Source of the DNA: Acidobacteriota bacterium
GTDB lineage: Bacteria > Acidobacteriota > Terriglobia > Terriglobales > Acidobacteriaceae
Reading direction: 5' to 3'
Assembly (NCBI GenBank): GCA_019236695.1
Contig: JAFAIN010000124.1
Span: forward strand, 1 to 33,517
Length of the DNA stretch: 33,517 bases
Part shown: positions 272 through 26,797 of the stretch, piece after piece
How the letters are laid out: every line of letters begins with the position of its first letter
Numbering within the stretch: the stretch's first letter is position 1
Translations under genes and position numbers: made by a program
The notes under the pieces: generated by a model
Database searches by the model: none
What the model saw: only the letters and a program-made list of their open reading frames with translations
Told to the model about the DNA's origin: nothing

Positions 272-309
272 CAATTCGGCAATTCGGCAATTCCGCAGTT
301 CGGCAATGG
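272..309. repeat. Octamer array, CAATTCSG family, copy 1
   Basis: CAATTCGG CAATTCGG CAATTCCG CAGTTCGG CAATGG, 2 bp beyond the Fis-type gene stop (312). Confidence 0.65.
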
Positions 310-311
310 AT

Positions 312-590
312 TTATCTTGCCGCCTTTTTTTCAAATACCTGCGGCCGGGCTGCTCGCGGCGGGCGCCGCGCCCCGTTGCGGATTACGCGGATATCGAGCT
401 TCAGCTCGGTAATGGTCCGGCTGAGAGTGTTGCGGTGCATGCCGAGTTCGCGCGCGGCCTTGCACTGGTTGCCGTTGTTTTCCTGGAGCACCGTCTGGAC
501 AAAGCGTTTCTTGAATTCGCGCACTGCCTCGGAGTAAAGGATGCCGCTGCGATACATCTGCATGACGAGTGCTTCCAATTGGTCTTTCAC
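312..590 (-). CDS. Fis-family helix-turn-helix protein
   Basis: 92 aa containing FVQTVLQENNGNQCKAARELGMHRNTLSRTITEL, a Fis-type HTH. Confidence 0.85.
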   Translation of the reverse strand: MKDQLEALVMQMYRSGILYSEAVREFKKRFVQTVLQENNGNQCKAARELGMHRNTLSRTITELKLDIRVIRNGARRPPRAARPQVFEKKAAR

Positions 591-650
591 CCGCGCCTCC
601 CTTTCGTCGTCTCCAACTGCCTTTCATCCCGGCCGCGCCACGCAATGTAT

Positions 651-1172
651 CTAATGCTGTTCTTCAAACCGGTGCAGGGCTGCGATGCCGGCGCGAAACT
701 GCTGCCGCACCGCGCTGGGCGCCAGCCACATCGCGCCGCGCCCTACAACCAGAAAGTAGGGCGCAAGCTGGGAATTCGTAAGCAGCGGTGTGTTTGGCTG
801 GAAAGCCGTAAGGCCAAGCAGCACCACCACCACTACCAGGCCGCCGCGAACCAGGCCGAATGCGCCGCCCAGCAACCGGTCAGCCCATCGCAATCCCGCC
901 GTCTTTGCGCCCCAGTGCGCGATCTTTCCCGCGACTCCCGCCAGAAACGCGACCCCAAAAAATATCAGCAGAAAAGCCGCAAGATCGGCCAGCCATGGCC
1001 GGTTGACATATGGCGCAATGCGCCCCGAAACCCGGCCATACATCCATGCCGCCAGCACGTAACCAGCGACTACTCCTGCCACGCTCAACGCTTCCCGCAA
1101 GAATCCCTGCGCCATGGCGGCAAGGATCGAAAGAACCATTACCGCAATAATGATGTAATCGACGGCATTCAA
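651..1172 (-). CDS. cvpA: CvpA family membrane protein
   Basis: LNAVDYIIIAVMVLSILAAMAQGFLREALSVAGVVAGYVLA...; hydrophobic helices typical of CvpA; lies beside purC. Start taken as TTG at 1172, since the longer ORF overlaps purC. Confidence 0.75.
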   Translation of the reverse strand: MNAVDYIIIAVMVLSILAAMAQGFLREALSVAGVVAGYVLAAWMYGRVSGRIAPYVNRPWLADLAAFLLIFFGVAFLAGVAGKIAHWGAKTAGLRWADRLLGGAFGLVRGGLVVVVVLLGLTAFQPNTPLLTNSQLAPYFLVVGRGAMWLAPSAVRQQFRAGIAALHRFEEQH

Positions 1173-1183
1173 ACCTGTGCCAG

Positions 1184-2101
1184 TTATGAGTGCGCAGGCA
1201 GGTCTTTTCCCGTAAGCCTGCGATACGCCTCGATGTACTTTTCGCTCGTCTTTTGCGCCACTTCCCCGGGCAGCGCCGGCGCTGGTGGCTGCTTGTTCCA
1301 ATGAACCTGCTCGAGATAGTCGCGGACGTACTGCTTGTCGAACGACTCCTGCGCGCGCCCTGGTGCGTAACTCTGCGCCGGCCAGAATCGCGAGGAATCA
1401 GGCGTTAGCACTTCATCCGCCAGCACCAGGCCCTTTGCGGTCCAGCCAAATTCAAACTTGGTATCGGCAATGATGATGCCGCGCTCCAGCGCATACTCGG
1501 CGGCTCGCGTATATACGCGGAGGCTCAAATCGCGCAGGCGCTCGCTTTCCTCGCGCCCGGCCCGCTGCACCATTTCCGAAAATGAAATGTTTTCGTCATG
1601 CCCGCTGGCAGCTTTTGTGGCGGGCGTAAAAATCGGCTCGGGCAGCCTGTCGGATTCCCGCAGCCCGGCCGGCAGCGCGATGCCGCATACGCTTCCGCTC
1701 TGCTGATATTCCTTCCATGCGGAGCCCGAAATGTAGCCGCGGACCACGCACTCAATCGGAACCATCTCGGCGCGCGCCACCAGCATGGAACGGCCCGCCA
1801 GTTCAGCACGGTGCACCTGCAAAGACTCGGGATACCGATCCATGCTGGCCGTAATCATGTGGTTCTCGACAATCTCTTTCAGGAAATCGAACCAGAACAC
1901 CGAAAGCTGCGTGAGTACCCGGCCTTTTTCAGGAATTCCGGTGGGCAGCACATAGTCGAACGCCGAAATGCGGTCGGTGGCGATGAACAGCAGGCGATCG
2001 TTATCCACCCGATAAATGTCCCGTACCTTCCCGCTGGCCCACATCTCGAGCTCGGAAAAATCGCTTTGCAGCAGAACTGGCTGAATAATCTCGGCGCTCA
2101 T
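1184..2101 (-). CDS. purC: Phosphoribosylaminoimidazolesuccinocarboxamide synthase
   Basis: 305 aa; GKVRDIYRVDNDRLLFIATDRISAFDYVLPTGIPEKGRVLTQLSVFWF and ECVVRGYISGSAWKEY are SAICAR synthetase motifs. Confidence 0.95.
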   Translation of the reverse strand: MSAEIIQPVLLQSDFSELEMWASGKVRDIYRVDNDRLLFIATDRISAFDYVLPTGIPEKGRVLTQLSVFWFDFLKEIVENHMITASMDRYPESLQVHRAELAGRSMLVARAEMVPIECVVRGYISGSAWKEYQQSGSVCGIALPAGLRESDRLPEPIFTPATKAASGHDENISFSEMVQRAGREESERLRDLSLRVYTRAAEYALERGIIIADTKFEFGWTAKGLVLADEVLTPDSSRFWPAQSYAPGRAQESFDKQYVRDYLEQVHWNKQPPAPALPGEVAQKTSEKYIEAYRRLTGKDLPAHS

Positions 2102-2280
2102 AAATGGGAAATGACGACGAAGAACAGTCGCGTAATTCTAGCCTGCTCGGCGGATTTGTCAACGCGCCGGTAGCCGCAAAACATCAGGCCAGAAGCATTG
2201 TGGAAAACTGCATTAGAGAAATGTCAAGCGCCAAAATGCCCATGCGCGGGCGCCGAAGAACCCCGAGGTTGCTCTTCCAC

Positions 2281-2316
2281 AAATTCCGCAATTCGGCAAT
2301 TCCGCAGTTCCGCACT
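2281..2316. repeat. Octamer array, CAATTCSG family, copy 2
   Basis: AAATTCCG CAATTCGG CAATTCCG CAGTTCCG CACT, 8 bp beyond the smc stop (2325). Confidence 0.65.
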
Positions 2317-2324
2317 CCCTTACT

Positions 2325-5300
2325 TCACGCGCTCTGCGCTTCCGCCCCGAAGCGCACCGATACGACCTTCGAGACGCCGGGCTCCTGCATGGTCACTCCG
2401 TACATCACCGGCGCGGCGCTCATGGTGCGCTTGCTGTGGGTGATGAGCACGAACTGCGTGTGGAAGCTCATTTCGCGCACCAGGTCTACAAAACGCGCCA
2501 CATTGGCTTCATCGAGCGGGGCATCCACCTCGTCGAGAATGCAGAACGGGCTGGGCTGGTATTGGAAGATGCCAACCAGCAATGAAAGCGCCGTAAGCGC
2601 TTTCTCGCCGCCGGAGAGCAGCAGCACGTTCTGCAGCTTCTTGCCGGGAGGCGACGCCACAATATCGATGCCGCTCTCGGCGCCGCCGCTGCCATCATCG
2701 CTGAGCCGCATGAAGGCGTTTCCGCCGCCGAACAGCTTGGCGAACGCGCGCTGGAAATTTTCGTTGATGCGGGCAAAGGCCTCCTGGAATTTCTGGCGCG
2801 AAACGGTTTCGATTTCGGCGATGGTGCTTTCCGTGTTCTGAATGGAAGCGAGCAGGTCCTTGCGCTGCTCATCCAGAAACTCATGCCGCTTAAACACTTC
2901 GTTGTATTCCTCCAGCGCCATCATGTTCACCGGCCCCATCGCATCGAGCCGGGATCGCATTTCCCTGCAGACGTTTTCTTCCCCGAGCAACGCCTCGCCC
3001 GCGAGCGGGGGCACAGCCAGCGTGGCCACCAGTTCTCCGGCCGGCACGCCCAACTCCTGCACCGATGTTTCGCCCAGATGCTGGAGGTCGGATTCGAGGC
3101 GGGCGCGAGCGCTGGCCAGTTCCGCGCGGCGATCACGAACGGCATCGAGCTGACCCCGCGCATCCTTCAACCCGGCATCGAGCGCAGCCAGGCGCTGCCG
3201 CAGTTCATCGGATTCCGCCTTCAGGGCAAGCGCCCCTGCTTCCAGTCCGGAGCGTTCCGCCGCAAGCTCAACCGCGCGCTGCGCGAGCTGTGCGTTCTGC
3301 TGCACGCGTTCCGCATGCTCGGCGAGAGCAGCCGCAAGCTGGCGTTCGAGCTCCGCCAGCCGGGCGTGCGACTCGGCAGCCGAAGCATCGAGCCGTTGAA
3401 CGGTGGCGGCGGCAGCTTTGCGCCGCTCCTCCGCGGTGGCAAGCTGCACTCGCATCTCCGCCGCACTATGGCCGGAAGCTTCGCGCGCCGCCGCCAGCGC
3501 CGTAAGCTGTTCCTGGGCTTCGGCAAGCGCTTTTTCCACCCGCATGCGTTCCTGCTCCACGCTCACCAGCGCCGCTTCGCTCTCGCTGATGCGTTCGAGA
3601 AGCGATTCGCGCTCCGCGCGGAGACGGTCAAGTTCCGCCATAAAGGTTTCAATCCGCGTGGTGGCGCGGGAAATCTCATGGTCGAGTTGCTTCAATGTGT
3701 GGCCCGAGGTCATGGCCTGGCGATCTGCCTCGCGCTTTTCGGCTTCGAGTTTTTCCAGGCGCTGCGACAACTCAGCAATGTCGCGGGCCAGCCTTCCGAC
3801 GGTCGCTTCCTGCTCGCGTAATGCTTTCTCGAGCTGGTCAACCTGCCTCATCAGGTCGCGCAGCTCGCGCTTCATCGAAAGCGGCCCTTCCGCGCGCTGG
3901 CGGCCTCCCGTCACGGTTACGTTATGGAAGCATTCGCCCGAGGGAGCCAGGAAGAAAGAGTCAGGGCTGTCGAGCGCCAGCTCGCGGGCAATGGCTGCGT
4001 CAGGCGCAATGTAGCCGTCGCGCAGCTTGGGCAGGATGACTTCCAACGATTTGCCAAAGCCATCGAGCACCCGCAGGCATCGGGACACCGGCACAACGCA
4101 GTCGCCTGCCGGCTGTTGCCGCGCGTTTTCATCCAGCGCAAAAGAAAAACGCGCCTGGCTGTCGCTGGGATGCACAAGGAACGTGGCCCGCCCATCGACA
4201 TCGGTGCGCAACACCTGCAGACCCTGGTCGGCTGCATCCCACGATTTCACGACGATGTAATTCAGCTCATCGCGCAGAAAATCTTCCACCACGCTTTCGT
4301 ACTGCTGATCGACGTCAAGGAAATCGGCCAGCACTCCCACCGGCGCCATTCCGCCCTGCAGTGCGTTGGAACGAAACAGGCGGCGCACCGATTCAGTGGA
4401 GTAGCCGTGCTCGGCAATCAGCGCTTCCAATGAAGCCCGCCGGCCAAGAGCGGAGGCATACTCGGCGCGCAACTGGTCGAGCCGCTGCTTGGCCTGGGAT
4501 TCGGCCTGGCGGCGCGCCACGGTGGCCTGGCGCGTGGAAGTGATTTCCTGCTCGAGCGAGTTCACGCGGTGCGAAGCGCTCTCAAACTCCAGCGCAATCT
4601 GCCCCCAGCGGCCGCCGAACATCTCCACTTCGTGCTGCGCCGATGCTTTCTCCTGCTGGACGCGTGCGCCTTCTCGCCCGAGCGCGGCAGCGCGTTCTTC
4701 GGCCTGCGTCATCTGGTTGCGGATTTCGGAGGCGCTGCTGACCATCCGCAGCAACTCGGCCCGCCGCCGCTCCTGCTCGGCTTCCGCCTGCTGCAGCCGC
4801 AGTCCGGCTTCTGAAGCTGCCAGTTGCAGCGCCTGCGCCTGCGCGTGAGTGCGCGCCACTTCGGCGGCGGCAGATTCCAGTTCTGCCTGGCGCTCGGCGC
4901 GCTCCACGGCCATGGCCGCGTGCTGCGCCCGGCTTTGCTCGAGCTGGCCGTTTAGCCCCGCATGGCGGGCGTCGAGTTCGGCGCAGCGCTCTTCATTGTG
5001 CGCGCGCGTTCCGGCGCAGCGATCCAGTTCGCGGGCCACCGCGTTCAGGCGCTCGGCCGCGGCGCGCGATTCTTCTTCCACAGCGTAACCGCGCTCCGTG
5101 CATGCCCGCTGCGCGGCCTCGAGTTCCTGCACCGATTCGCCGCGCAGCCGAACTTCATCGCCCAGTTCGCCCAGTGTGCCATCGAGCGCGCCGGCTTCAC
5201 CCGTCATGGCCGAATACTTCCCCGCCAGAACGTTCCTGAGCTTTTCCCGCAGTTCTTCTCGAACCCGCGCGTAGCGCTCGGCCTTCGAGGCCTGGCGCTT

Positions 5301-6227
5301 CAGCGAGTTCATTTGCCGGGTGACTTCGTCAAAAATATCATTCACCCGCGCCAGGTTGAGCCGGGCCTGCTCCAGCCGCGCTTCCGCCAGCCGTTTTTTG
5401 GTTTTGAATTTCGTAATGCCCGCGGCTTCCTCAATGATGGCGCGGCGGTCATAGGGCTTGCTGCTCAGGATTTGCCCAATCCTTCCCTGCTCGATGATGG
5501 CATAGGACTCTGGTCCCAGACCGGTCCCCATGAACAGCTCCTGAATGTCGCGCAGCCGGCACAGCTTGCCGTTCAGCAGATATTCGGATTCGCCCGACCG
5601 AAACAAGCGCCGCGTAACCCGGATCTCGCCCGCTCGTAGAGCCGGGCGCTTCAGCATGCGGCGCCTGATCTTCAGGACAACCTGCGGCCCGGCAGGCTGC
5701 TCACCTATGTGGTCAATCTCAGGATGGGTACTCGCATGTTCCTGAGCGTCGGGCCCAGCTCCAGGCCCGGCTTCGCGCCCGGCGTCAGGCGCAGCAGGAT
5801 CCGGTTCGAGCGGGCGTACCTCTTCTATATAGCGTTCCGCCTCGGCGCTGGATTCAGCACGCACCGCCGCTTCATCCCAGTCGTCAACCGCACTCCCCGG
5901 CAGCTCATCCGAAATCTCAATCTCGGGCGCGGCATTAGCGTCGGCGCCGTCATAAACATCGGGATCGATCAGGCTGAGCGTTACCTCGGCCATACCGGTG
6001 GGCTTGCGATCCCGCGTCCCCGAAAAGATAACGTCATCCATCCGCGAGCCGCGCAGCGATTTGGCCGACTGCTCCCCCAGGACCCAGGAGATGGCGTCGG
6101 AGATGTTCGATTTGCCACAGCCGTTCGGGCCCACGATGGCGGCAATGCCGTCGCCATGGAACTGCAGTTCGGTGCGGTCGCAGAATGACTTGAACCCAAG
6201 GATTTGCAGCTTCTTAAGTTTGAGCAA
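2325..6227 (-). CDS. smc: Chromosome segregation protein SMC
   Basis: 1300 aa; Walker A GPNGCGKSN, ABC signature LLSGGEKALTALSLL, Walker B CILDEVDAPLDEANV, long coiled coils and a central hinge. Confidence 0.95.
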   Translation of the reverse strand: MLKLKKLQILGFKSFCDRTELQFHGDGIAAIVGPNGCGKSNISDAISWVLGEQSAKSLRGSRMDDVIFSGTRDRKPTGMAEVTLSLIDPDVYDGADANAAPEIEISDELPGSAVDDWDEAAVRAESSAEAERYIEEVRPLEPDPAAPDAGREAGPGAGPDAQEHASTHPEIDHIGEQPAGPQVVLKIRRRMLKRPALRAGEIRVTRRLFRSGESEYLLNGKLCRLRDIQELFMGTGLGPESYAIIEQGRIGQILSSKPYDRRAIIEEAAGITKFKTKKRLAEARLEQARLNLARVNDIFDEVTRQMNSLKRQASKAERYARVREELREKLRNVLAGKYSAMTGEAGALDGTLGELGDEVRLRGESVQELEAAQRACTERGYAVEEESRAAAERLNAVARELDRCAGTRAHNEERCAELDARHAGLNGQLEQSRAQHAAMAVERAERQAELESAAAEVARTHAQAQALQLAASEAGLRLQQAEAEQERRRAELLRMVSSASEIRNQMTQAEERAAALGREGARVQQEKASAQHEVEMFGGRWGQIALEFESASHRVNSLEQEITSTRQATVARRQAESQAKQRLDQLRAEYASALGRRASLEALIAEHGYSTESVRRLFRSNALQGGMAPVGVLADFLDVDQQYESVVEDFLRDELNYIVVKSWDAADQGLQVLRTDVDGRATFLVHPSDSQARFSFALDENARQQPAGDCVVPVSRCLRVLDGFGKSLEVILPKLRDGYIAPDAAIARELALDSPDSFFLAPSGECFHNVTVTGGRQRAEGPLSMKRELRDLMRQVDQLEKALREQEATVGRLARDIAELSQRLEKLEAEKREADRQAMTSGHTLKQLDHEISRATTRIETFMAELDRLRAERESLLERISESEAALVSVEQERMRVEKALAEAQEQLTALAAAREASGHSAAEMRVQLATAEERRKAAAATVQRLDASAAESHARLAELERQLAAALAEHAERVQQNAQLAQRAVELAAERSGLEAGALALKAESDELRQRLAALDAGLKDARGQLDAVRDRRAELASARARLESDLQHLGETSVQELGVPAGELVATLAVPPLAGEALLGEENVCREMRSRLDAMGPVNMMALEEYNEVFKRHEFLDEQRKDLLASIQNTESTIAEIETVSRQKFQEAFARINENFQRAFAKLFGGGNAFMRLSDDGSGGAESGIDIVASPPGKKLQNVLLLSGGEKALTALSLLVGIFQYQPSPFCILDEVDAPLDEANVARFVDLVREMSFHTQFVLITHSKRTMSAAPVMYGVTMQEPGVSKVVSVRFGAEAQSA

Positions 6228-6662
6228 AACCTGCTCCTTCTCCGCGGTCCCGGCCGCGAACCAGAACCGTTATTGATCGGTGAGCTTCCTCAAGGCGAAT
6301 CACCCCAAAACGCGGGAAAAACTGCACAAAAACTGCCACAGAGCACGGCTGGGGGGGCTCCGGCTCGGCTGCAATTGCGTCAACTGTAGCGGCGAAAGCC
6401 GTCCCGGTCAATGGCTGTGCATACTCTATAATGTGGCTGGTCCAGCAGCACCCAACATATTGTGGCGCAAATGTGGAAATCCGCGCATAAACCCGGAAGG
6501 GTTAATAAAGGAGGAAGGGAGAAGCGCGAGAGCAGGATCATGGTAGCTCTGACGGGAAGCGAGACGCAATGGAATTTGCGCAACCCGTGGCGACATTTAT
6601 TGTGCGGTCAGGATTCCCAGCAGAGGCATGTGCACTCTACTGTTGCGAACGGGAAACTGTCG

Positions 6663-6851
6663 TCACCCGATCTCCGGAATTCCCAAACCCCGACAAACCT
6701 TTCGTGCAAGAGTATTTGGAATCTCAATATGACGGGGAATCGCTTCCACCGCGCCTGTCGCCGGGTTCATCCATAAAGAATGCGAGGCGCCTTCGCGTTT
6801 CAGGACGCAACCATGCCTGCGGAGGTGCTGCAGCAGGCTGCTGCGCTTCAT
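6663..6851 (-). CDS. hicA: HicA family toxin (mRNA interferase)
   Basis: 62 aa; KRSSLLQHLRRHGCVLKREGASHSLWMNPATG...VPRH-like IPRHIEIPNTLARKVCRGLGI; overlaps hicB by 4 bp. Confidence 0.85.
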   Translation of the reverse strand: MKRSSLLQHLRRHGCVLKREGASHSLWMNPATGAVEAIPRHIEIPNTLARKVCRGLGIPEIG

Positions 6852-7063
6852 TGCACGACTACCGTGTCACGCTCAGCATCCGGCGGCACCGCGCGCATGC
6901 CCTCTTCCCGGCGGTCTGACAAAATCAGGGAGATCGCACCGGCCAGGTTTTCCCGGGCCTCGTCCTTGGTTCTGCCCTGGCCGTTTGCTCCCGGGATTTC
7001 TGGGCAGTACGCGATGTACCACTCCTCATCGCGCTCGAAAATGGCGGTGAACTCATTGCGCAT
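6848..7063 (-). CDS. hicB: HicB family antitoxin
   Basis: 71 aa; FTAIFERDEEWYIAYCPEIPGANGQGRTKDEARENLAGAISLIL, HicB fold, directly upstream of hicA. Confidence 0.87.
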   Translation of the reverse strand: MRNEFTAIFERDEEWYIAYCPEIPGANGQGRTKDEARENLAGAISLILSDRREEGMRAVPPDAERDTVVVQ

Positions 7064-7427
7064 GCCTCAGCATACGACGGTGGCTGCCGGCAATACCACT
7101 TTTTCACTCTCAATGCGCTGCCTTCTAGCTCCGCCCGCCACTGTTCTCCACTGCTAGCGGCAGGGTTCTATTAGGGCGGATCAGCCCAGGGAATGCAGAA
7201 CCCCTTGCAAGGACCGGTTTGCCCGGGCAAGCTCCCTAAAACGGGAAAGCCGGAAATTTCTCTTCGCTGTTCTGCACATATTGCTGCAGGGCAAATCAGG
7301 TAACGGCGCCGGAACTCTCAGCCTGCGCTCGGGGGCAATACTCTACGGAGAGAATGCCCCGCCAACCGTGAACTTCCGGCAGGGGGTTTCCTTAGTGGTT
7401 GGCCGAGTCGGTTGTTAGACTTGCATC

Positions 7428-7904
7428 GTGGCAGCTGCCAAACACCCGCGCGGCGCTTCATTGCCGATCCGCGACTCCCGGCCGGCTGATTTCGAGCGGC
7501 TCTGGCGGATCGACCAGGCATGTTTTGACGATCGGTTAGCATACTCGCGGGCCGAGTTCGAGTACTACCTCGGCTTGCCGAATGCATTCGCGCTTGTAGC
7601 CGAGCAGGCTGGAGCCATTGTTGGGTTTGTTGTGGCGCGGCCTGTGCCGCGGCGCAGGACCGGGCACATCATCACCATCGACGTTCTGGCAGAATCGCGG
7701 CGGTTGGGCGCCGGCTCGGAGCTGCTGCGCATAGCCGAAGACCGCCTGCGCATCGCGGGCTGCGCACGCGTCATACTAGAGACGCCGGTCAGCAATCTCG
7801 GCGCGATTGCGTTTTATCACCGCCACGCCTATGCAGTCCTGCGCACGCTGCGCGGCTATTACGCCGATGGGCTTGACGGGCTCGAAATGGAAAAAAAGCT
7901 CTAA
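7428..7904 (+). CDS. GNAT family N-acetyltransferase, RimI-like
   Basis: 158 aa from a GTG start; IDVLAESRRLGAGSELLRIAEDRLRIAGCARVILETPVSNLGAIAFYHRHAYAVLRTLRGYY is a GNAT acetyl-CoA-binding region. Confidence 0.82.
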   Translation: MAAAKHPRGASLPIRDSRPADFERLWRIDQACFDDRLAYSRAEFEYYLGLPNAFALVAEQAGAIVGFVVARPVPRRRTGHIITIDVLAESRRLGAGSELLRIAEDRLRIAGCARVILETPVSNLGAIAFYHRHAYAVLRTLRGYYADGLDGLEMEKKL

Positions 7905-7933
7905 GCCAGTGGCGTTCCGGCTTAGAGCTTTTT
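7893..7933 (+). terminator. Intrinsic terminator, possibly bidirectional
   Basis: Perfect 15-bp inverted repeat aaaaagctctaagcc / ggcttagagcttttt with an 11-nt loop and T-rich end. Confidence 0.85.
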
Positions 7934-7953
7934 GTATATCGCCTGCGGCTCCC

Positions 7954-8196: not shown

Positions 8197-8254
8197 CTTT
8201 CCCCTCCATAATGGTTTTTCCGAATCGCTAATCGTTGTTATGGTGCACCGCAGG

Positions 8255-8564: not shown

Positions 8565-8599
8565 CTGAGAATTGAGGACTGAGGCCGAGAGCTGGGTCT
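8565..8599. repeat. Heptamer array, CTGAGNN family
   Basis: CTGAGAA TTGAGGA CTGAGGC CGAGAGC TGGGTCT, between the small membrane protein gene and lon. Confidence 0.45.
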
Positions 8600-11352: not shown

Positions 11353-11384
11353 TTCTCCGTGCCTCTGCGCCTCCGCTGTGAGCC
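11353..11384. repeat. Octamer array, CTCCGYGN family, copy A
   Basis: TCTCCGTG CCTCTGCG CCTCCGCT GTGAGCCA, 25 bp after the lon stop. Confidence 0.6.
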
Positions 11385-12479: not shown

Positions 12480-12550
12480 TGCATTCTCCTGAAATCAGAT
12501 TCGGGTGTTCGGATGATGCCACACGTTCGACGGATGGCTCGCCTTCGGAG

Positions 12551-12585
12551 CTCTCAGCCCTCGGCTCTCAGCTTTCAGCCGCCGG
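12551..12585. repeat. Heptamer array, CTNTCAG family
   Basis: CTCTCAG CCCTCGG CTCTCAG CTTTCAG CCGCCGG, in 7-bp phase. Confidence 0.55.
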
Positions 12586-12620
12586 ATGAATGAAACGCCC
12601 GTTCCATCCCCGACGCAGCA

Positions 12621-12686
12621 TGGCTGTATAGCTGAATGGCTCGTCGAGCACGGAGCCCCCGATCCAGCCATGCAGCTATTCAGCTA
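12621..12686. repeat. Pair of opposed octamer arrays, TRGCTGNA family
   Basis: TGGCTGTA TAGCTGAA TGGCTCGT (12621-12644) opposed by TCCAGCCA TGCAGCTA TTCAGCTA (12663-12686), the reverse complement of TAGCTGAA TAGCTGCA TGGCTGGA. Confidence 0.55.
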
Positions 12687-12737
12687 CCTGGGGAGGGTGT
12701 CATCCCGAGCGCAGCGAGGGATCTGCATTTCGTCCGG

Positions 12738-12765
12738 CTGAGAGCTTAGAGCTGACCGCTGAAAG
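12738..12765. repeat. Heptamer array, CTNTCAG family, opposite orientation
   Basis: CTGAGAG CTTAGAG CTGACCG CTGAAAG, 5 bp beyond the M16 protease stop at 12771. Confidence 0.55.
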
Positions 12766-12770
12766 CTCGT

Positions 12771-14048
12771 TCAGCACGCCAGTTGCTCGCGCGAGATCTT
12801 CAACCCGCTCAGGTTGCCGAGCACCGTGACGGCGATCAACTCCGGGCGGAAGAACTCCTGCGCGAGCTGGTGCAGGTCTTCGACGGTGACTTCTTCGATG
12901 CGATCGATCAGTTCGTCGAGCGAGAAAAAGCGGTCGAAGTACATCTCCTGCCGCGCCAGGTTCGACATGCGGGCGGTGGAGGATTCCAGGCTCAGCATCA
13001 GGCTGCCCTTCAACTGATCCTTGGCGCGGCGCAACTCTTCTTCGGGAACCGGGGCACGCTTCAACTCCGCAAACTCCCGGACAATTGACTGCACCACCTT
13101 CTCGGCCGATTGCCGCGAAGTGCCGGCATAAATGGAGAGGCAGCCGGTATCGCGATAAGGGTTCAGGTCGCTGAAAATGGCATAAACCAGGCCCTGGCGC
13201 TCGCGAATATTTTGAAACAACCGCGAGCTCATCCCGCCACCCAAAAGCGTATTCAGGATATACGAGCTGTATCGCCGTTCGTGCCCGATGGGAAGCGCCG
13301 GCACACCCACGCAGATCTGCACCTGTTCCAGCGACTTCTTGTTGCGCATCACGATTCGCGAAGCAACTTTGGGCGGCACCTCGTGAAAGCCGTTCCTGGG
13401 GCCGGGAAGCTGCTGAAAACGCTCGCGCGTCACGTTCACGAACTCGGCATGGTTGAGGTTGCCGGCAGCGCAAACAATCAGGTCAGCCGCCTTGAACCTG
13501 CGGTTGTAAACATCCAGCAGCACATCGCGCTCGAACCGCCTCACCGTCTCTTTGGTGCCCAGGATCGGCTTCCCCAGCGGGTGATCCTTCCAGAAATTCT
13601 GGGCGAAGATCTCATGAACGAGGTAATCGGGATTGTCCTCGTCCATCTTGATTTCTTCCAGAATCACCCCGCGCTCGCGCGCAATGTCTTCGGGAGCAAA
13701 TACCGGGTTTAGAACCAGGTCGGCCAGCACATCCATTGCGATGGGGACATGCTCATCCAGCACCTTTACGTTGAAGCAGATGCATTCTTTGGCAGTGAAC
13801 GCATCCATGTTGCCGCCAATGCTGTCAATTTGGCGTGCAATGTCTTCCGCGGTCCGGCTGCTGGTTCCCTTGAACACCATGTGCTCGAGGAAATGCGAGA
13901 TGCCGTTCACTTCGGCATCCTCATGCCGCGACCCTGTCTTGATCCAGATCCCGATCGAAACCGAGCGGATGTGCTGCATTTCCTCGCTCAGGATCGTGAG
14001 CCCGTTAGGGAGCACTTCGCGTTGAATGTTGCGCGTTTCCTGCACCAT
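12771..14048 (-). CDS. M16 family zinc peptidase (processing-protease-like)
   Basis: 425 aa; HFLEHMVFKGT (HxxEH) and ARERGVILEEIKM. Confidence 0.94.
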   Translation of the reverse strand: MVQETRNIQREVLPNGLTILSEEMQHIRSVSIGIWIKTGSRHEDAEVNGISHFLEHMVFKGTSSRTAEDIARQIDSIGGNMDAFTAKECICFNVKVLDEHVPIAMDVLADLVLNPVFAPEDIARERGVILEEIKMDEDNPDYLVHEIFAQNFWKDHPLGKPILGTKETVRRFERDVLLDVYNRRFKAADLIVCAAGNLNHAEFVNVTRERFQQLPGPRNGFHEVPPKVASRIVMRNKKSLEQVQICVGVPALPIGHERRYSSYILNTLLGGGMSSRLFQNIRERQGLVYAIFSDLNPYRDTGCLSIYAGTSRQSAEKVVQSIVREFAELKRAPVPEEELRRAKDQLKGSLMLSLESSTARMSNLARQEMYFDRFFSLDELIDRIEEVTVEDLHQLAQEFFRPELIAVTVLGNLSGLKISREQLAC

Positions 14049-15386: not shown

Positions 15387-15418
15387 CGCTCCGTGCCTCC
15401 GTGTCTCCGCTGTGAATT
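15387..15418. repeat. Octamer array, CTCCGYGN family, copy B
   Basis: CGCTCCGTG CCTCCGTG TCTCCGCT GTGAATT, directly after the rlmN stop (15385). Confidence 0.6.
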
Positions 15419-18911: not shown

Positions 18912-19110
18912 TCTTCCTCCATTGCCTCTCAGACTTCTGCGAGTCCGGGGCAAGCCGAAGTGTAGGGAGGCCGTATTGCTCGGCGGTTAAGGGCCGTTAA
19001 ATGCAAAATGAAAAAATGCGGGCAGGGCTGTGGTAATCGGAAACTACGGCAATTTCATGCGCGAGCGATTGAACTCAACTGCAGAAGGCGGGCAGACAGA
19101 ATCCTCAAAG

Positions 19111-19200
19111 TTCAACAGAATTTAACAGCGCGGAAAAAGCAGCCTGCAAGAGTTCAACTTGAACCACTTGAAATCAACAGAATCCAACAGGTTTCAACAG
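19111..19200. repeat. Clustered (T)TCAACAG motifs with 10-bp phasing
   Basis: ttcaacagaa tttaacagcg (19111-19130) and aaatcaacag aatccaacag gtttcaacag (19171-19200); near-palindrome gttcaacttgaac at 19152-19164. Confidence 0.55.
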
Positions 19201-19280
19201 GGGCTTGAATCCGGTTGGGGTCCAGGGGGTCGGAGGGATCATTACTCCCATACTGCTTCCAGTTATCGGCAAGTCCCACA

Positions 19281-20147
19281 TCACACTCCCAGCAACCGGC
19301 TAAGCTTCGCCCGCTGCTTCACGGGCAGCCTGCGCAGGGCGATTCGCGCCAGCGCCACATATAGACCCTGCGCGTCGGGCATCGAGCGCAGCGCTTCCAG
19401 ATGGCGCGCTACCGTCGCCACATCTCCGCGCTGCAGCGGACCCGTAAACGCACTCGCGGCGCCATGCCGCCTGTAATTCGCAATTGTTTGGTCCACCAGC
19501 GGCAAAATGGCTTCCCGTGCCGCTCGGGCACGGAGCCCTGCGCTGCGCGCAATCTCTTCTCCGGCGGCGAGTTCTGCCACCAGCAGCGGCGAAGCGAATA
19601 CCGCCCAGGCATGGTAAAGGGCTTTTCGGTCGGGGTTTATGCGCAGCATGCGAGCTTTCAGATCGCCGATAATCTGCCGCGCCAGCCGCACCGCCGCGTC
19701 ATCTCCCTCCACTCCAAACCACACGTCGCGGAAGTCCCGGCGTGAACTGCCGGCAAACGTCATCAGCGGATGCACTGACGCCACCCTCACCCCGGCTGCG
19801 CGCAGCGGGCTGAGAGCTTCACTCAGAAGCGCGCCGCTGGAATGGAAGGCGTAGTTCGCCGTTGAGCCCGAAGCAGCCAGTGCGTCAGCCACAGATGCGA
19901 TTCCGTCATCGCGCACGCAAATCCAAAGCAGTTCCGCGGTGACTGACTCTCCCAAAACGCACAGTTGCGCGCCAAGCCTGCGGGCCAGGAATCGCCCTTT
20001 TCTCAACGACGCCGGCCGATCGCGCACCACCACGTTCATTACGCGATAGCCCGCCCCAACCAGGGCCGGTCCGAGCGCCGTTGCCAGGCTGCCTGCCCCG
20101 GCCAGCGCAATCGATGGCCGGTTACGCCTGTTTGCCGCGAAGGCCAT
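19281..20147 (-). CDS. Rossmann-like and DUF2520 domain protein
   Basis: 288 aa; PSIALAGAGSLATALGPALVGAGYRV and VRVASVHPLMTFAGSSRRDFRDVWFGVEGDDAA. Confidence 0.85.
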   Translation of the reverse strand: MAFAANRRNRPSIALAGAGSLATALGPALVGAGYRVMNVVVRDRPASLRKGRFLARRLGAQLCVLGESVTAELLWICVRDDGIASVADALAASGSTANYAFHSSGALLSEALSPLRAAGVRVASVHPLMTFAGSSRRDFRDVWFGVEGDDAAVRLARQIIGDLKARMLRINPDRKALYHAWAVFASPLLVAELAAGEEIARSAGLRARAAREAILPLVDQTIANYRRHGAASAFTGPLQRGDVATVARHLEALRSMPDAQGLYVALARIALRRLPVKQRAKLSRLLGV

Positions 20148-20175
20148 AAACCTATTTCATACGTATATTGAATTC

Positions 20176-20724
20176 ATGGCAAAGAATCGTGCCCGGGTGG
20201 TTTCCGGCCGCGTAGTGTATCGCGGGCCGGTTTTTTACGTCACCTCCGAGCAGGTGCGCGAGCCGCACGGAGTTACGGCCCGCCGCGACATCATCCGCCA
20301 TCCGGGTTCGGTGGTCGTCATGCCGGTGGACGAGTCAACCGCCGGCACTCGCATTCTGCTGGCACGCCAATATCGATACGCGGCCGGCCGGCCGCTGTGG
20401 GAATTCCCCGCAGGCCGCATCGATCCCGGCGAATCCGCTCTCGCCGGCGGCCGGCGCGAACTGCTTGAAGAAACCGGCTACACCGCCCGGCACTGGAAGT
20501 TGGCGCTAAAGTTCTGGGTGAGCCCGGGTTTTCTCGATGAAACCATGGCCCTCTATCTCGCCACCGGCCTGCACAAAGGGCAGGCACAGCCCGAAGAAGA
20601 CGAGTTCATCGCCAAGCGCTTCTTCCCGATCGACTCAGCCGTAAGAATGGTTGAGAACGGCCAGATTCTCGATGCAAAAACCATCGCCGGCATTTTGTGG
20701 CTCGCCAGATTGAGAACGAAATAG
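20176..20724 (+). CDS. NUDIX hydrolase (ADP-ribose pyrophosphatase-like)
   Basis: 182 aa; Nudix box GRIDPGESALAGGRRELLEETGY. Confidence 0.92.
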   Translation: MAKNRARVVSGRVVYRGPVFYVTSEQVREPHGVTARRDIIRHPGSVVVMPVDESTAGTRILLARQYRYAAGRPLWEFPAGRIDPGESALAGGRRELLEETGYTARHWKLALKFWVSPGFLDETMALYLATGLHKGQAQPEEDEFIAKRFFPIDSAVRMVENGQILDAKTIAGILWLARLRTK

Positions 20725-20807
20725 CGGCCTTCGGCCGCCTGTGCACCCCAGCAGGCCAAAACCGGGCCCGCCGGGGACCCCGCCTGTCCGGCCGAGGGCG
20801 GCCGGAC
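20724..20807. repeat. GC-rich hairpin cluster between convergent genes
   Basis: gcggcc-ttc-ggccgc (20724-20738) and gtccggcc-gagggc-ggccggac (20786-20807). Confidence 0.5.
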
Positions 20808-20824
20808 CCACGCAGTTCCGTTCT

Positions 20825-20856
20825 GCTCCGCGCCTCCGCGTCTCCGCGGTGAAAAC
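20825..20856. repeat. Octamer array, CTCCGYGN family, copy C
   Basis: GCTCCGCG CCTCCGCG TCTCCGCG GTGAAAAC, 13 bp before the M24 stop at 20870. Confidence 0.6.
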
Positions 20857-20869
20857 CCATCTGACGGGG

Positions 20870-22174
20870 TTAGCCGAAGGGCTGCTCCAGGCTGGGGCTT
20901 TGCGGCGTAAACAGCTTCGCGCCATCCTCGGTGATGTGCATGTCATCTTCCAGGCGAACACCGAACTCGCCGCGAATGTAAACTCCCGGCTCATCACTGA
21001 AACACATATTCGGCTCCAGCTTGAGGGTGTTGCCTCTCACCAGGTATGGCCATTCGTGGCCATCCATACCGATGCCATGCCCGAGGCGGTGCGAGAAGTA
21101 GCGATAATCAGGGCCATAGCCCGCTTCGACGATCACCTTGCGCGCCGCCGCGTCCACCGACTGCGCCTCCGCTCCCGGCCTCGCCGCGGCGAGCGCGGCG
21201 GCCTGCGCGCGATGCACGATATCGAACACCGTCTTCATCTTGTCAGCCGGCTGCCCCAGGACGAATGTGCGGGTAATATCCGATTGGTATCCGTCAACCG
21301 AGCAGCCGTCGTCCACCATGATGATGGTGCCCTCGCGGATGAGTTGCGGCTGGGCCGAGCCGTGCGGCAGCGCGGTAAACTCGCCAACTTGAACGCTGGC
21401 AAATCCGTTGAACCCTACACGCCGGTAAGCCGCGCTGATCAGGGCGCCGGCATCATTCTGCGACATGCCCGGCTGCAACGCCTTGTAAACCGCTTCATAT
21501 ACCTTGAGCGTCGCCTGGTTCGCAATGGTCATGAGTTCCAGTTCGTGCGCGGTCTTGATGCGGCGGCAGCCCGCGGTTATGGGAGTGGCGCTTTCGAGTT
21601 TCAGCGTCGGCGCCGCATGCGCCACGCCCTCGCGAAACACGTCAGGGGTGCGCTCCTCGATGCCCAGGATGCCGGCCGCGATCCCGCGTGCGCGCAGGCC
21701 GCGCGCGACCAGCGAGTATGGGTTGTCGTCTTCATGCCAGGTAAGCACCTCGGCATTGCCCAGCGGCCCCAGGTTGAGCTGTTCCCGCGCGCGATCTTCC
21801 TCGAATGAAGGGCACACGGCGAACGCCTGCCCCTTCTTCGGAATCACAACTGCAAACACCCTCTCGCTATTGCCCCATCCCACGTTTGTGAAATAGCGGA
21901 GTGACGTTCCGCCCGCGAGGAAGATGGCATCCATCCGGCTTTGCGCCATCAGTTGCTGTGCTCTATCGATTCGCGCTCCCCGCTCGTCGGTGGTGATGGG
22001 GTGCACCTCATCCTTCATCGAGGCGAGGGCCGCAATCGAAGCAGGGGTCTGGCGGTTTGACGATGGCGGCTGCCGCATCCCCTCGTCCTGCGCTTCCAGT
22101 TGCGGTACCCGGCGCAGCAGCATTGCCCCGGCGCCGGCCGCGCCCACACCCAGAAACCATCTCCGGTTCAGCAT
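20870..22174 (-). CDS. M24 family metallopeptidase (Xaa-Pro peptidase-like) with N-terminal export-like signal
   Basis: MLNRRWFLGVGAAGAGAML; metal-ligand motifs VDDGCSVDGYQSDITRTF, HRLGHGIGMDGHEWPYL, EPGVYIRGEFGVRLEDDM. Confidence 0.9.
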   Translation of the reverse strand: MLNRRWFLGVGAAGAGAMLLRRVPQLEAQDEGMRQPPSSNRQTPASIAALASMKDEVHPITTDERGARIDRAQQLMAQSRMDAIFLAGGTSLRYFTNVGWGNSERVFAVVIPKKGQAFAVCPSFEEDRAREQLNLGPLGNAEVLTWHEDDNPYSLVARGLRARGIAAGILGIEERTPDVFREGVAHAAPTLKLESATPITAGCRRIKTAHELELMTIANQATLKVYEAVYKALQPGMSQNDAGALISAAYRRVGFNGFASVQVGEFTALPHGSAQPQLIREGTIIMVDDGCSVDGYQSDITRTFVLGQPADKMKTVFDIVHRAQAAALAAARPGAEAQSVDAAARKVIVEAGYGPDYRYFSHRLGHGIGMDGHEWPYLVRGNTLKLEPNMCFSDEPGVYIRGEFGVRLEDDMHITEDGAKLFTPQSPSLEQPFG

Positions 22175-22395
22175 GATTGCTCCTTGGAATAGCCGACAAA
22201 TGTATGTGTTTTTGCCGGGCCTTACAACCGGGGCGGCGCAATCCGCCCCTTTCATCTGCCGGGGAAGACGCCAATCATAAAATCCGCCAGTATTCCACCA
22301 GGGAGCGCAACCCGCGGGTTTATGCTGAATTCCCTCCCCCGGCGCGAAAATTCGGGCTGGAATTCACTTCAAACTGACCTAAAATCAATGCTCAG

Positions 22396-25341
22396 ATGGC
22401 CCCCCCTGACAACCGATCGGGCAAGCCTGACCCGTCCGATGCCGCGACATTTATTGGTGCAGCGGTAGGCGCAGCTTCGTCTTCTGCCGGCGACACCAGC
22501 GCCGCGGGAGCCGCCATGACAATGGTCCCGGTGTCGCGCACTCCAACCCTTCTGGGGACAGTGCTTGGAGGCCGCTATCGCATCCTGAATATCCTCGGTC
22601 AGGGCGGCATGGGCGCGGTGTACAAGGCCGAAGATGTAAAGCTCAACCGCCTGGTCGCGATCAAGGTCATTCGCCGGGAATTGGCCAACGACCGCTCCAT
22701 CATGGAGCGGTTCACCCAGGAACTCGTGCTGTCGCGCGAGGTCACGCACCAGAATGTTGTTCGCCTCTTCGACATTGGCGAGGCCGATGGGATCGATTTC
22801 ATCACCATGGAGTTTGTGGAAGGCGAGGACCTGCGCAGCCTGCTGCAGCGCAGCGGCAAGCTCCCTCCCGCAGAAGCAGCCGGTATCGTTGCCCAGATCT
22901 GCGCGGGGCTGCAGGCGGCCCATGCCAAGGGCATCATTCATCGTGACCTGAAGCCGGGCAACATAATGCGCGAGGCTTCCGGCCGGGTTGTGGTCATGGA
23001 TTTCGGGCTCGCCCGCACGCTCGGCGGCGATGGCATGACGCAATCCGGCGCGCTGATCGGCACGTTCGAGTACATGTCGCCCGAGCAGTCGCGTTCGGAA
23101 CATATTGACGCGCGTTCCGATCTCTACACCGTCGGCCTGATCTTTTACGAGTTGCTCACCGGTGTAAGCCCGTATCAGGCTGACAGTGCAATTGCGAGCC
23201 TGCTGATGCGCTCGCAGCAGCGCGCCAAGCCGCCCACCTCGCATGACGCCTCCATTCCGCCCGGCATCAGTGCGATCTGCGAGCGCTGCCTCGAAATTGA
23301 CCCGGCGAGCCGCTATCAAAGCGCCGCCGATCTTATCGCCGACCTTGAGAACTGGAAGTCACCGGGCGGAGCGCGCAGCCAGGTCCCATGGCGTGTAAGC
23401 GCTGCCGCGCGGCGATGGAAGGCGCAGTTCAAACAGGGGCAGGTTCCATGGCGGCCGGTGGCGCTGGCCATCGTAGTTGCGGTGGCCGCCACCGCCGGCG
23501 CTTTCTTCCTGGCAAGATCGGGCTCTTCCCGCGCCGGCCCCCATGCTCCCATGAGCGTGCTGGTGGCCGACTTCACCAACCATACCGGCGACCCTGTGTT
23601 CGACAACACGCTTGAGCCCATGCTCAACGTGGCGCTCGAGGGTGCGTCATTCATCAACGCGTACGACCGCAGCCAGGCAAGGAAGCTGGCGGCTAAGCTT
23701 CCCTATCCTTCCGACAAGCTCGACGAAGTATCATCGCGGCTGATCGCGGTCAGCCAGGGCATCAGCACCGTGATTACGGGAGAGCTTGACCATGAGGGCG
23801 AAGGCTACAGCATCTCCCTTAGGGCGCGCGATCCTGCGAGCGGCAGGATTCTTGCCAAAGCAGAAGCCAGCGCCACGAACAAAGAAGGCGTTCTCAGCGC
23901 CATCCCCCGGCTGGCGGCGCCAATCCGCAAGGCGCTGGGCGACGCCACCCCTCCTTCCGTGCAGCTCGAAAGCGTTGCCGGAGGCTTCACCGCGGCTTCG
24001 CTCGAAGCCGTTCACGAGGACGCGATTGGAGTAGATGAGGAGTTTGCCGGCAAGTTCGGCGATGCGTTCAACTCCTTCCAGAAAGCCTCCCAGTTGGATC
24101 CCAATTTTGCCCGCGCCTACACCGGCATGGCGGCCATGGCGCTTGACCTGGGCCGAAAGGAAGATGCAGCCAATTACATGAAGCAGGCCATGGCGCACAT
24201 TGACCGGATGACCGAACGTGAGCGCTATCGCGATCGTGGCCTGTACTACCTGACTTCAGGCGACTGGCAGAAATGCGTGGATGAATATACGCAGCTCGTC
24301 TCGCGCTACCCTGCGGACCGCGTAGGACAGAATAATCTGGCAACCTGCTACACCCAGTTACGCAATGCTCCCAAAGCGTTGGAAGCCGCTGCCCGGGCGG
24401 TGGAGATCGTTCCCAAAGGGGCAGGCCAGCGCGAAAACCTCTCATTTATCAGTTCGTTTGCCGGCGATTTTGCCGCTGGCGAGCGTGAATCCCGCGCCGC
24501 GCTCTCCATCACCCCGGAGTTCCAGGGCTATCTTGCCCTGGCCGAAGCACAACTGGGCCAGGGGCATGCCGGCGATGCTGCCGCAGCCTACGAACAATTG
24601 AAAGCGTATGGCGCAATCGGAGCTTCGACCGCCTCTGCTGGATTGGCCGATCTCGCCGCGTACCAGGGGCGCTACGAAGAGGCTGCTCGCCTGCTGCAGC
24701 AGGGCGCCGAAGCCGATTTCGCTGCCAAGCTGAAGGAGAATGGCGCCAGAAAGCTCGCTTCCCTTGCTGCAGTGGAACTCTGGCGAGGGCACAAAACCGA
24801 AAGCCTGGCCGCTGCAGGCAAGGCTTTGGCCGGCAGCCAGGCTGTTTCGATCAGGCTTCTGGCGGGCCTGGCGTATGCCGATGCCGGCGACTCTTCAACA
24901 GCCGAAAAAATAGCGGGGACCCTCTCCTCTGAGTTGAGCTCCGAGCCGCAAGCCTACGGCAAAATCATTGCTGGAGTGGCTGCCCTCAAGCGAGGCGACG
25001 CCCAGGCAGCGGTAAAGAACATCAGCGATGCAAACGCCCTGCTCGATACGTGGATTGGGCGCTTCGAACTCGCCCGGGCTTACATTGAAGCCCGCGCCTT
25101 CCCTGAAGCTGACAGCGAATTGGATCGGTGCGCCAAACGCCGCGGCGAAGCCATTGAGTTGTTCATGGATAACGTGCCCACCTATGCCTGGTTCCCGCCC
25201 GTGTATTACGATCAGGGCCGCGTGCGCGAGGGCATGAAGAGTGAAGGTTTTGCCGATTTCTATCGCAGCTATCTCGCCATTCGAGGCCAGGCCGCGGAAG
25301 ATCCTCTCACCGCGGATATCCGCCACCGCATCGGGCAGTAA
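22396..25341 (+). CDS. Transmembrane serine/threonine protein kinase with TPR region
   Basis: 981 aa; GQGGMGAVYKAEDVKLNRLVAIKVI, HRDLKPGNIM, DFGLAR, GTFEYMSPEQ; TM WRPVALAIVVAVAATAGAFFLA; TPR-like repeats after it. Confidence 0.93.
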   Translation: MAPPDNRSGKPDPSDAATFIGAAVGAASSSAGDTSAAGAAMTMVPVSRTPTLLGTVLGGRYRILNILGQGGMGAVYKAEDVKLNRLVAIKVIRRELANDRSIMERFTQELVLSREVTHQNVVRLFDIGEADGIDFITMEFVEGEDLRSLLQRSGKLPPAEAAGIVAQICAGLQAAHAKGIIHRDLKPGNIMREASGRVVVMDFGLARTLGGDGMTQSGALIGTFEYMSPEQSRSEHIDARSDLYTVGLIFYELLTGVSPYQADSAIASLLMRSQQRAKPPTSHDASIPPGISAICERCLEIDPASRYQSAADLIADLENWKSPGGARSQVPWRVSAAARRWKAQFKQGQVPWRPVALAIVVAVAATAGAFFLARSGSSRAGPHAPMSVLVADFTNHTGDPVFDNTLEPMLNVALEGASFINAYDRSQARKLAAKLPYPSDKLDEVSSRLIAVSQGISTVITGELDHEGEGYSISLRARDPASGRILAKAEASATNKEGVLSAIPRLAAPIRKALGDATPPSVQLESVAGGFTAASLEAVHEDAIGVDEEFAGKFGDAFNSFQKASQLDPNFARAYTGMAAMALDLGRKEDAANYMKQAMAHIDRMTERERYRDRGLYYLTSGDWQKCVDEYTQLVSRYPADRVGQNNLATCYTQLRNAPKALEAAARAVEIVPKGAGQRENLSFISSFAGDFAAGERESRAALSITPEFQGYLALAEAQLGQGHAGDAAAAYEQLKAYGAIGASTASAGLADLAAYQGRYEEAARLLQQGAEADFAAKLKENGARKLASLAAVELWRGHKTESLAAAGKALAGSQAVSIRLLAGLAYADAGDSSTAEKIAGTLSSELSSEPQAYGKIIAGVAALKRGDAQAAVKNISDANALLDTWIGRFELARAYIEARAFPEADSELDRCAKRRGEAIELFMDNVPTYAWFPPVYYDQGRVREGMKSEGFADFYRSYLAIRGQAAEDPLTADIRHRIGQ

Positions 25342-25461
25342 AGACCGCGCACGTGCCGGTACTCAACTGAGTGGGAACCACAAATCCGTTTTGGCCGCAA
25401 TACTCTGAATCCGACCTGCCAGAAAATGCCATGATTCGGACTTGTCCGGCAGTTCTGCATT

Positions 25462-26427
25462 TCACTCCATCGTGATGACTACCTTCCCCTGGTGATTCGC
25501 CGCGCCGAAGTGTCGAAATGCCTCGCGCGCATCGCTCAGCTTGTAGGGGCCATCGATAACAGGCATTAGCTTTCCGGCTTCAAAGCACTGGCTCAGGTAG
25601 GCTAGGTCCCGGTTCTGTCTCAGAAGGATCACGCGGACTTTCTTGGTTGTGGTTTGCCGAATCCACCAGCCGAAGATCACGAACTGGAGCAGCAGTCGTG
25701 ACCGGTCTCCACCCACGGTCGCGTATGTTCCGCCGGGATTGAGTGAGCGCACGCACTGGAAGGGCGGGTGCGCGGCTTTTGTATCGACGATCAGGTCATA
25801 GCGCCGGCCATTTTTGGTGAAGTCTTGCGTTCGGTAGTCGATGACATGATCAAAACCGATGGTGCGCATCATCTCGAGCTTCCGCGCGCTGTCAACTCCG
25901 GTGACTTCAACGTCTTGCAACTTGGCGAGCTGGACGGCGATTGTGCCCACGCCGCCACCCGCCCCATTGATCAGGATTTTCTGGCCCGGTTTCAGCGGTC
26001 CATTCGCGAAGAGAGCTTGCACGGCGAGCTGCCCGGCTTGCGGCAGCGCGGCTGCCTGGCCGAATGTCATTCCAGCCGGCTTCCTTGCCAATGCGCGTTC
26101 GGGAGCACACACATACTCCGCAAATCCGCCCCACCCACCAGACCCGAAGCGAGACAAATCCCCATAAACCTCGTCTCCGAGTGCGAGGCGCTGAACCCCG
26201 CTGCCCAACGCGGCAACTCGTCCCGCAACGTCGGAACCGAGAATCCGCACCCGTGGTGCGCGGCCGAGCGGAAGCATGGGGCGCTGGAGCAGTCCCCAAT
26301 CCCAATCGTTGATGGAGGCGGCATGCACGCGCACCAGGACCTCGCGTTCCTTTGGAACGGGTGCTTCGATCTCCCTGACTTCGAGTACGTCGGGCGGGCC
26401 ATATCGGTCGCGAATCAGCGCTTTCAT
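25462..26427 (-). CDS. NAD(P)-dependent zinc-type alcohol dehydrogenase / quinone oxidoreductase family protein
   Basis: 321 aa; RYGPPDVLEVREIEAPVPKEREVLVRVHAASIN and ILINGAGGGVGTIAVQLAKLQDVEVTGV. Confidence 0.9.
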   Translation of the reverse strand: MKALIRDRYGPPDVLEVREIEAPVPKEREVLVRVHAASINDWDWGLLQRPMLPLGRAPRVRILGSDVAGRVAALGSGVQRLALGDEVYGDLSRFGSGGWGGFAEYVCAPERALARKPAGMTFGQAAALPQAGQLAVQALFANGPLKPGQKILINGAGGGVGTIAVQLAKLQDVEVTGVDSARKLEMMRTIGFDHVIDYRTQDFTKNGRRYDLIVDTKAAHPPFQCVRSLNPGGTYATVGGDRSRLLLQFVIFGWWIRQTTTKKVRVILLRQNRDLAYLSQCFEAGKLMPVIDGPYKLSDAREAFRHFGAANHQGKVVITME

Positions 26428-26574
26428 TCGTCCTTCGCGCGCTCGTCACCTGTCGCAGAGAACAATAAACCTTCGGCAGCCACTTGACCGATTGCGGCAA
26501 ACTGCCTCTCGACTTGACAACAAGGCGTGAGGCCCGCCGCGGAGGACGACTAACCTTATTGTGGCCGGCCGTAC

Positions 26575-26676
26575 GTGCTCCCGGATTCTTCGCCCGCGGC
26601 CGCGTGGGTGGACCGCCACTCCAGGTGGAAGGTCATTCTGAGCGCGCCATGGCGGGCGAAGAATCTGGGAGCGCAC
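26575..26676. mobile_element. Candidate MITE/REPIN-like element
   Basis: Left arm gtgctcccggattcttcgcccgc (26575-26597), right arm gcgggcgaagaatctgggagcgcac (26652-26676); 14 bp perfect, extended pairing with one mismatch and a 2-bp insertion. No ORF. Confidence 0.5.
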
Positions 26677-26739
26677 TCGCCTTGCGCGGAGGGTAGTCTT
26701 CCTCTGCCGCGCATGTGTCCAACCGAAGGTGAAGGTTTT

Positions 26740-26797
26740 GGCTCTCAGCCTATTCCGATTTCCCACTTACTCAACTTCCCAATTACTCAATTCCCTC
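26740..26797. repeat. Octamer array, CAAYTNCY-like, abutting the crp-like gene stop
   Basis: GGCTCTCA GCCTATTC CGATTTCC CACTTACT CAACTTCC CAATTACT CAATTCCC in 8-bp phase. Confidence 0.55.

Follow-up and report, generated by a model that had tools for sequence, protein, structure and literature searches.

Tandem arrays in the window

The window considered here, the whole 33,517-nucleotide contig JAFAIN010000124.1 from an Acidobacteriota genome, carries between its genes a series of degenerate tandem arrays with units of 7 or 8 bp. Such arrays are very probably of mobile-element origin: they would be the inverted arrays at the ends of mobile DNA centred on one small gene of the S23 family (PF05635, 23S_rRNA_IVP), together with its miniature derivatives and solo relics. 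An earlier note on the window, made from the sequence alone, had listed ten arrays, seven of them beside stop codons; all ten are present, and home-made gene calls place seven of them no more than 26 bp from a stop codon. The window itself contains no S23 gene, and no Rfam match was found in it.

All features below are given on the plus strand, and each array was compared with 200 shuffles of its own 400-bp surroundings. Two solo 8-bp arrays share the unit CAATTCSG, one at 272..309, located 3 bp beyond the stop of the minus-strand gene 312-590, and one at 2281..2316, located 9 bp beyond the stop of the minus-strand gene 2325-6227 (0/200 shuffles each). Three solo 8-bp arrays belong to the dispersed CTCCGYGN family, for which 48 pattern matches were found: a weak one at 11353..11384 (14/200, not significant alone), one at 15387..15418 that occupies a 39-bp gap between convergent genes (1/200), and one at 20825..20856, also in a convergent gap, with a stop codon 14 bp away (0/200). 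A weak solo 7-bp array of CTGAGNN units is found at 8565..8599 (3/200), while an irregular 8-bp array of CAAYTNCY units at 26740..26797, abutting the stop of the minus-strand gene 26798-27514, was detected as period 16 and is weak alone at period 8 (29/200 for 26760-26797). Counting 12621-12686 as two, nine of the 11 arrays were matched in no more than three of 200 shuffles.

The sequences at 12551-12585, 12738-12765 and 12621-12686 had been described as separate arrays. Their positions are correct, but the first two are the arms of one inverted pair and the third is an inverted pair nested within it. The outer pair is a miniature lacking S23, with a left arm of 7-bp AGCTSTC units at 12548..12581 and a right arm of GCTGAGA units at 12735..12768, the latter adjoining the stop of a minus-strand gene at 12771; the arms are 34 nt long and 82% complementary, and the whole paired element (12545-12771) folds with z = -3.4. 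The nested pair, 12615..12686, is composed of 8-bp units TRGCTGNA / CAGCTATN in arms at 12615-12641 and 12653-12686. Separately, an imperfect palindrome, TGTCATCCCGAGCGCAGCGAGGGATCTGC, lies at 12697-12725, and similar stretches occur in other intergenic regions (e.g., at loci L083 and L100); these possibly constitute a separate REP-like family.

Arrays across the genome

The genome is available as a fragmented assembly of 3.64 Mb in 363 contigs (88% complete), about 0.90 Mb of which (contigs C1-C86) was scanned with a simple autocorrelation score (cut-off >=10), using five dinucleotide shuffles as control and a home-made gene caller that misses short genes, S23 included. In the 156 kb of intergenic DNA, 59 period-7 arrays were detected versus 2.4 in shuffled sequence, and 125 period-8 arrays versus 1.4, so that the abundance expected in the earlier note is borne out; by extrapolation, the whole genome would contain several hundred. 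Considering that periods 5, 6, 9, 10, 11 and 13 yielded only 2-11 intergenic arrays, and that coding DNA contained about three arrays of periods 7 and 8 per equal number of bases, the excess is specific to these two periods. Intergenic arrays also exceed the shuffled number at period 20 (18 vs 1.0), which is no multiple of 7 or 8, and mildly at period 4 (11 vs 1.2).

Roughly a dozen unit families are found repeatedly, of which AATTCGGC, AAAGTGCG, ACGGAGNC and AGCTGAN are the largest. The earlier note was right to propose a single format with many unit sequences and a common process. Its accompanying view, that this process rather than one dispersed element underlies the arrays, is at least incomplete: each family is itself dispersed (the CAATTCSG family alone accounts for 139 genome-wide matches of the pattern CAATTCNG) and neighbouring arrays of the same unit are inverted in 49 cases and direct in only 10. 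Paired arrays (83 of 208, the others being solo) are separated by spacers mostly of 2-160 bp, with others of about 280-590 bp. The predicted bias toward gene 3' ends also holds: density is highest in convergent gaps (2.9 arrays per kb, against 1.6 in tandem and 0.8 in divergent gaps), and within tandem gaps 40 of 98 arrays lie no more than 25 bp from the upstream stop, versus 19 expected from random placement.

S23 genes enclosed by inverted arrays

Two of the long spacers were examined, and each contains a small open reading frame of the four-helix-bundle S23 family. In the window's own genome, all four PF05635 genes lie between inverted 7/8-bp arrays, with four different units. The family was found in 75 of 149 genomes of the phylum. 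In a sample of 125 loci made up of the best-scoring matches from the phylum together with plasmids, 7-9-bp arrays flank S23 on both sides in 115 and on at least one side in 123; left and right periods are 7/7 in 86 loci and 8/8 in 21. The flanking arrays are nearly always of equal period and inverted, and the unit changes from one element to the next. An inverted complement of at least 16 was present at 112 of the 125 loci, compared with two of 575 ordinary genes of this genome, neither of which is S23.

A further search used the Xanthomonas S23 protein of known structure (XCC0516 alone) as query and retrieved 80 named loci, 77 of them testable. Arrays were present on both sides in 61 of the 77, covering 17 phyla, and on at least one side in 75. 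The GGGAATC heptamer, highly enriched in Xanthomonas and reported with no gene linked to it (PMC4692102), proved to be the S23-flanking unit in three Xanthomonas species and in Luteimonas, an association that had been predicted ahead of the search. Variants with 6-bp (L182) or 9-bp units (L136, L289, L322 and L373) were also encountered at S23 elements, showing that the period can change. In Pseudanabaena (L149), long near-perfect AAAAGCT/AAAAGCC arrays of more than 100 nt stand beside S23 at 1875-1996 and 2357-2463, which suggests recent unit expansion atop the usual size of five unit cores.

Correspondence between units and S23 proteins

Array-rich genomes are S23 genomes, and the unit tracks the S23 protein. 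Unit similarity between elements falls from 0.82 at S23 identities of at least 80% to 0.70 at 60-80%, 0.56 at 50-60% and about 0.48 below. Orphan arrays in the window's genome were matched by units of its own S23 genes at a mean of 16 per unit, versus 1.3 for units of S23 genes from other genomes; among the four own units, AAAGTGCG matches 39-59 orphan arrays and one matches none. With a single stretch, no longer than 20 kb, taken per genome, ten S23-rich genomes contained 47 arrays in 200 kb (20 of them from a single genome), whereas ten S23-less genomes, four of which share a genus, contained none in 184 kb. Genomes without S23, namely G041, G043, G046, G065 and those of genus g33, appear to have almost no intergenic arrays of period 7 or 8 in the stretches examined, which makes them suitable as clean comparisons.

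For the window itself, the sharing of units with S23-flanking arrays is mixed. The paired heptamer family is closest to S23-flanking units (similarity 0.76-0.85): the pair at 12548-12768 has the unit of the own-genome S23 element L113 (0.76 for the left arm and 0.81 for the right). The CAATTCSG and CAAYTNCY units reach moderate values (0.69-0.76). The nearest S23-flanking unit to the array at 272..309 is that of the own-genome element L115, to which the array at 2281..2316 has a similarity of 0.76; the array at 26740..26797 has a similarity of 0.71 to an array of the S23 element L379 from a relative.

Filled and empty sites

Evidence of mobility comes from Nostocales plasmids, in which the array-S23-array block (~430 bp) is a precise insertion, present or absent between plasmids. 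Flanks of the empty sites are about 97% identical for T. variabilis plasmid C and about 93% for Nostoc ATCC 53789. The empty allele at the T. variabilis site reads AAAGTAATTAA|CAAATAATTATG, and the filled allele carries the whole block with GTAATWAA on either side, which looks like an 8-bp target duplication containing a single mismatch. At the Nostoc ATCC 53789 site, the duplication is 5-7 bp long (RTTCTA). A third Nostocales site is represented by a filled allele, an empty allele with local sequence loss and a remnant lacking S23. In addition, a 184-bp element without S23, sharing its left array with the S23 element, is dispersed in many Nostoc plasmids; this derivative, whose ends are those of the S23 element, is precisely absent from one allele. 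Within the phylum of the window, congeners lack the S23 element L138 of genus g67 in the orthologous gap, and one of them (G151) has 21 bp there. The arrays thus come in with the element, and a derivative without S23 has also been inserted.

In annotated loci, S23 is located between cas6 and cas4, between Cmr2 and Cmr3, between subunit genes of ribonucleotide reductase, and among transfer genes. The cyanobacterial plasmid elements L149, L152 and L156 lie within CRISPR-cas operons (cas6/cas4, Cmr2/Cmr3). Earlier work took S23 genes located in cas loci to be CRISPR-linked (PMC3936711); because S23 elements lie between cas genes, the reported IVP genes may instead be insertions and not accessory immunity genes.

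Proposed explanation and its alternatives

A full element measures about 500 bp and consists of an array, the S23 gene and the same array in reverse complement. Each element has its own unit, 7 or 8 bp long and in rare cases 6 or 9 bp. At S23 genes, the most frequent array length is 30 nt where the unit is a 7-mer and 33-35 nt where it is an 8-mer, equal to four units plus about 2 nt, or five unit cores; orphan arrays have similar medians (32 and 34 nt, respectively). Both solved S23 structure entries contain five chains, and S23 is described, through a citation in PMC4990558, as a toroidal homopentamer. In the proposed mechanism, an S23 ring would bind an array through about five unit cores; we tentatively favour one unit per subunit, while putting this at somewhat below an even chance. 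The ring would set the period and leave the unit sequence free to drift with its cognate S23, and S23 would mark ends both in cis and in trans. The suggestion in the earlier note of a protein that reads the period was a good guess, and we infer S23 to be that reader. The 3'-end bias would be survivor bias, insertions being tolerated past stop codons but neither within promoters nor within genes; survival of harmless insertions is the best reading of this bias.

Three rival explanations were considered. Under replication slippage, 7-8-bp arrays would arise in place, the DNA footprint of the polymerase favouring that slip length, a hypothesis quoted in PMC4692102. The strong period preference, the variation in unit number (for example, between Coxiella strains in the S23 element; PMC4990558) and the very long near-perfect arrays of L149 would suit it, but not the dispersal of a single unit over many sites, the 49:10 preference for inverted pairing, the lack of any seed array at empty sites, the array-free state of the sampled S23-less genomes or the enclosure of S23 by arrays. 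As an origin it is highly improbable, although slippage may add or remove units later; growth from a pre-existing unit was rejected, as empty alleles carry no array. Retention as 3'-end or terminator elements, with hairpins of paired arrays ending or protecting transcripts, at times bidirectionally between convergent genes, draws on the enrichment at 3' ends and in convergent gaps and on the good folding of the 12545-12771 pair. Most arrays are solo, however, terminator-like sites (a G+C-rich stem followed by a T run) number 12 versus 16.2 in shuffled sequence between 11000 and 27000 of the window, S23-less genomes do without such arrays, and insertion bias accounts for their position. We regard this origin, too, as very unlikely, and a terminator role could be a secondary use. 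Unit dispersal, inverted pairing and the filled and empty sites, where arrays arrive inside a mobile element, therefore argue against both of these origins, which had been candidates in the earlier note.

A third explanation accepts mobility and assigns it to a trans-acting transposase, such as one of the Y1/RAYT type, with S23 as accessory or passenger. Y1_Tnp is present in 11 of 11 S23-rich genomes (2-14 copies) versus 6 of 10 S23-less ones, S23 contains no known nuclease, and the anatomy resembles that of REPIN-RAYT systems. On the other hand, Y1_Tnp occurs in S23-less genomes too, the target duplications at two sites are unlike Y1 chemistry, and units differ per element while co-varying with S23. 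The window's genome has two Y1_Tnp copies, and in the loci examined the enclosed gene is PF05635 and never Y1_Tnp. This possibility is rather unlikely. A reverse transcriptase (RVT_1) as obligatory partner was rejected, since it is missing in 5 of 11 S23-rich genomes; on the same count, the elements do not fit a diversity-generating retroelement, in which a reverse transcriptase accompanies the four-helix-bundle protein (Avd partner).

Several observations weigh against an origin in S23 elements. A blind test for duplicated flanks over 165 elements gave no excess; target duplication is visible at two plasmid sites and ambiguous at that of the 184-bp derivative. No catalytic protein was found for S23 elements. 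About 60% of arrays in this genome lack an inverted partner in the adjoining 600 bp. On the S23 tree the period proved labile: its labels cluster but switch 16 times, for which reason a strict fixing of period by S23 subfamily was rejected. Genome G019 is rich in CAATTCSG arrays, yet both of its S23 genes bear other units, and a same-genus S23, that of genome G001, lacks arrays. Within the window, TRGCTGNA is only weakly similar to S23-flanking units (0.66-0.72), and no S23 with a CTCCGYG unit was found in the S23 sample (similarity <=0.57). Because of these mismatches, the two arrays that are weak alone, the same-genus S23 without arrays and the location of the empty alleles at other loci, the assignment of the window arrays to S23 elements rests on family, format, size and the genome-wide association.

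A wider proposal, which we consider about evenly balanced between right and wrong, is that these elements form a mobile class that lacks a recognised transposase and extends over most bacterial phyla, its arbitrary 7-8-bp end units being read one per subunit by the pentameric S23 ring. Such a class would mobilise S23-less miniatures in trans and would be a main source of heptamer and octamer arrays in bacterial genomes, with the intervening sequence (IVS) of 23S rRNA as one case.

Significance

Reports of heptamer repeats in bacterial genomes go back decades, and heptamers are the most abundant intergenic tandem repeat over 7,006 prokaryotic genomes, with "no clear clue" to their function (PMC6344855). 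S23 elements would supply a source for them. S23, in turn, is a widespread protein with unassigned function for which pentamer structures have been solved, and the link merges both puzzles into one testable system, comprising a gene, cognate ends, natural empty sites and strict predictions (a unit swap alters specificity; array length equals five cores). Among the few open-access papers found to name the S23 family, none makes a general connection with heptamer arrays (subscription journals lay outside the search), and a literature search using the repeat sequences returned unrelated papers only.

Comparison with known systems

The earlier note knew of no named family for such arrays. This is partly wrong: such heptamers go under the names STRR (cyanobacteria) and GGGAATC repeats (Xanthomonas; PMC4692102), and they are also the abundant class described in PMC6344855. 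The STRR of cyanobacteria and the GGGAATC/GGGGATT heptamers of Xanthomonas and Nostoc are likewise degenerate, intergenic and near stop codons; moreover, S23 carries GGGAATC in Xanthomonas, and the S23 genes of Nostocales plasmids carry heptamers. Unlike here, those reports deal with the repeats alone, invoke G-quadruplexes or slippage and link no gene to them. The TAACTGA heptamers of Beggiatoaceae are also dispersed and intergenic, and their authors weighed two ideas, that of a mobile element and that of a protein binding the repeats, but made no link to S23 (PMC4679880).

The 23S rRNA IVS of Leptospira and Coxiella resembles the present elements in having an S23p open reading frame within inverted repeats and a length of about 430-500 bp. 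It has been called a selfish element, its mobility was proposed long ago, and the Coxiella IVS has GACAGAT tandem heptamers just upstream of S23p (PMC4990558). In contrast to the IVS, the annotated plasmid S23 loci and the window arrays described here lie between protein genes and not in rRNA, and the elements end in 7/8-bp arrays with a new unit each and with dispersed miniature and solo derivatives. REPIN/RAYT systems offer the closest parallel in organization, as a gene is enclosed by its cognate repeat, inverted pairs are dispersed in trans and decayed singlets remain; dispersed inverted pairs and singlets of this type are present here as well. The two differ in that S23 takes the place of the Y1 transposase and tandem arrays that of REP palindromes, with very many possible units.

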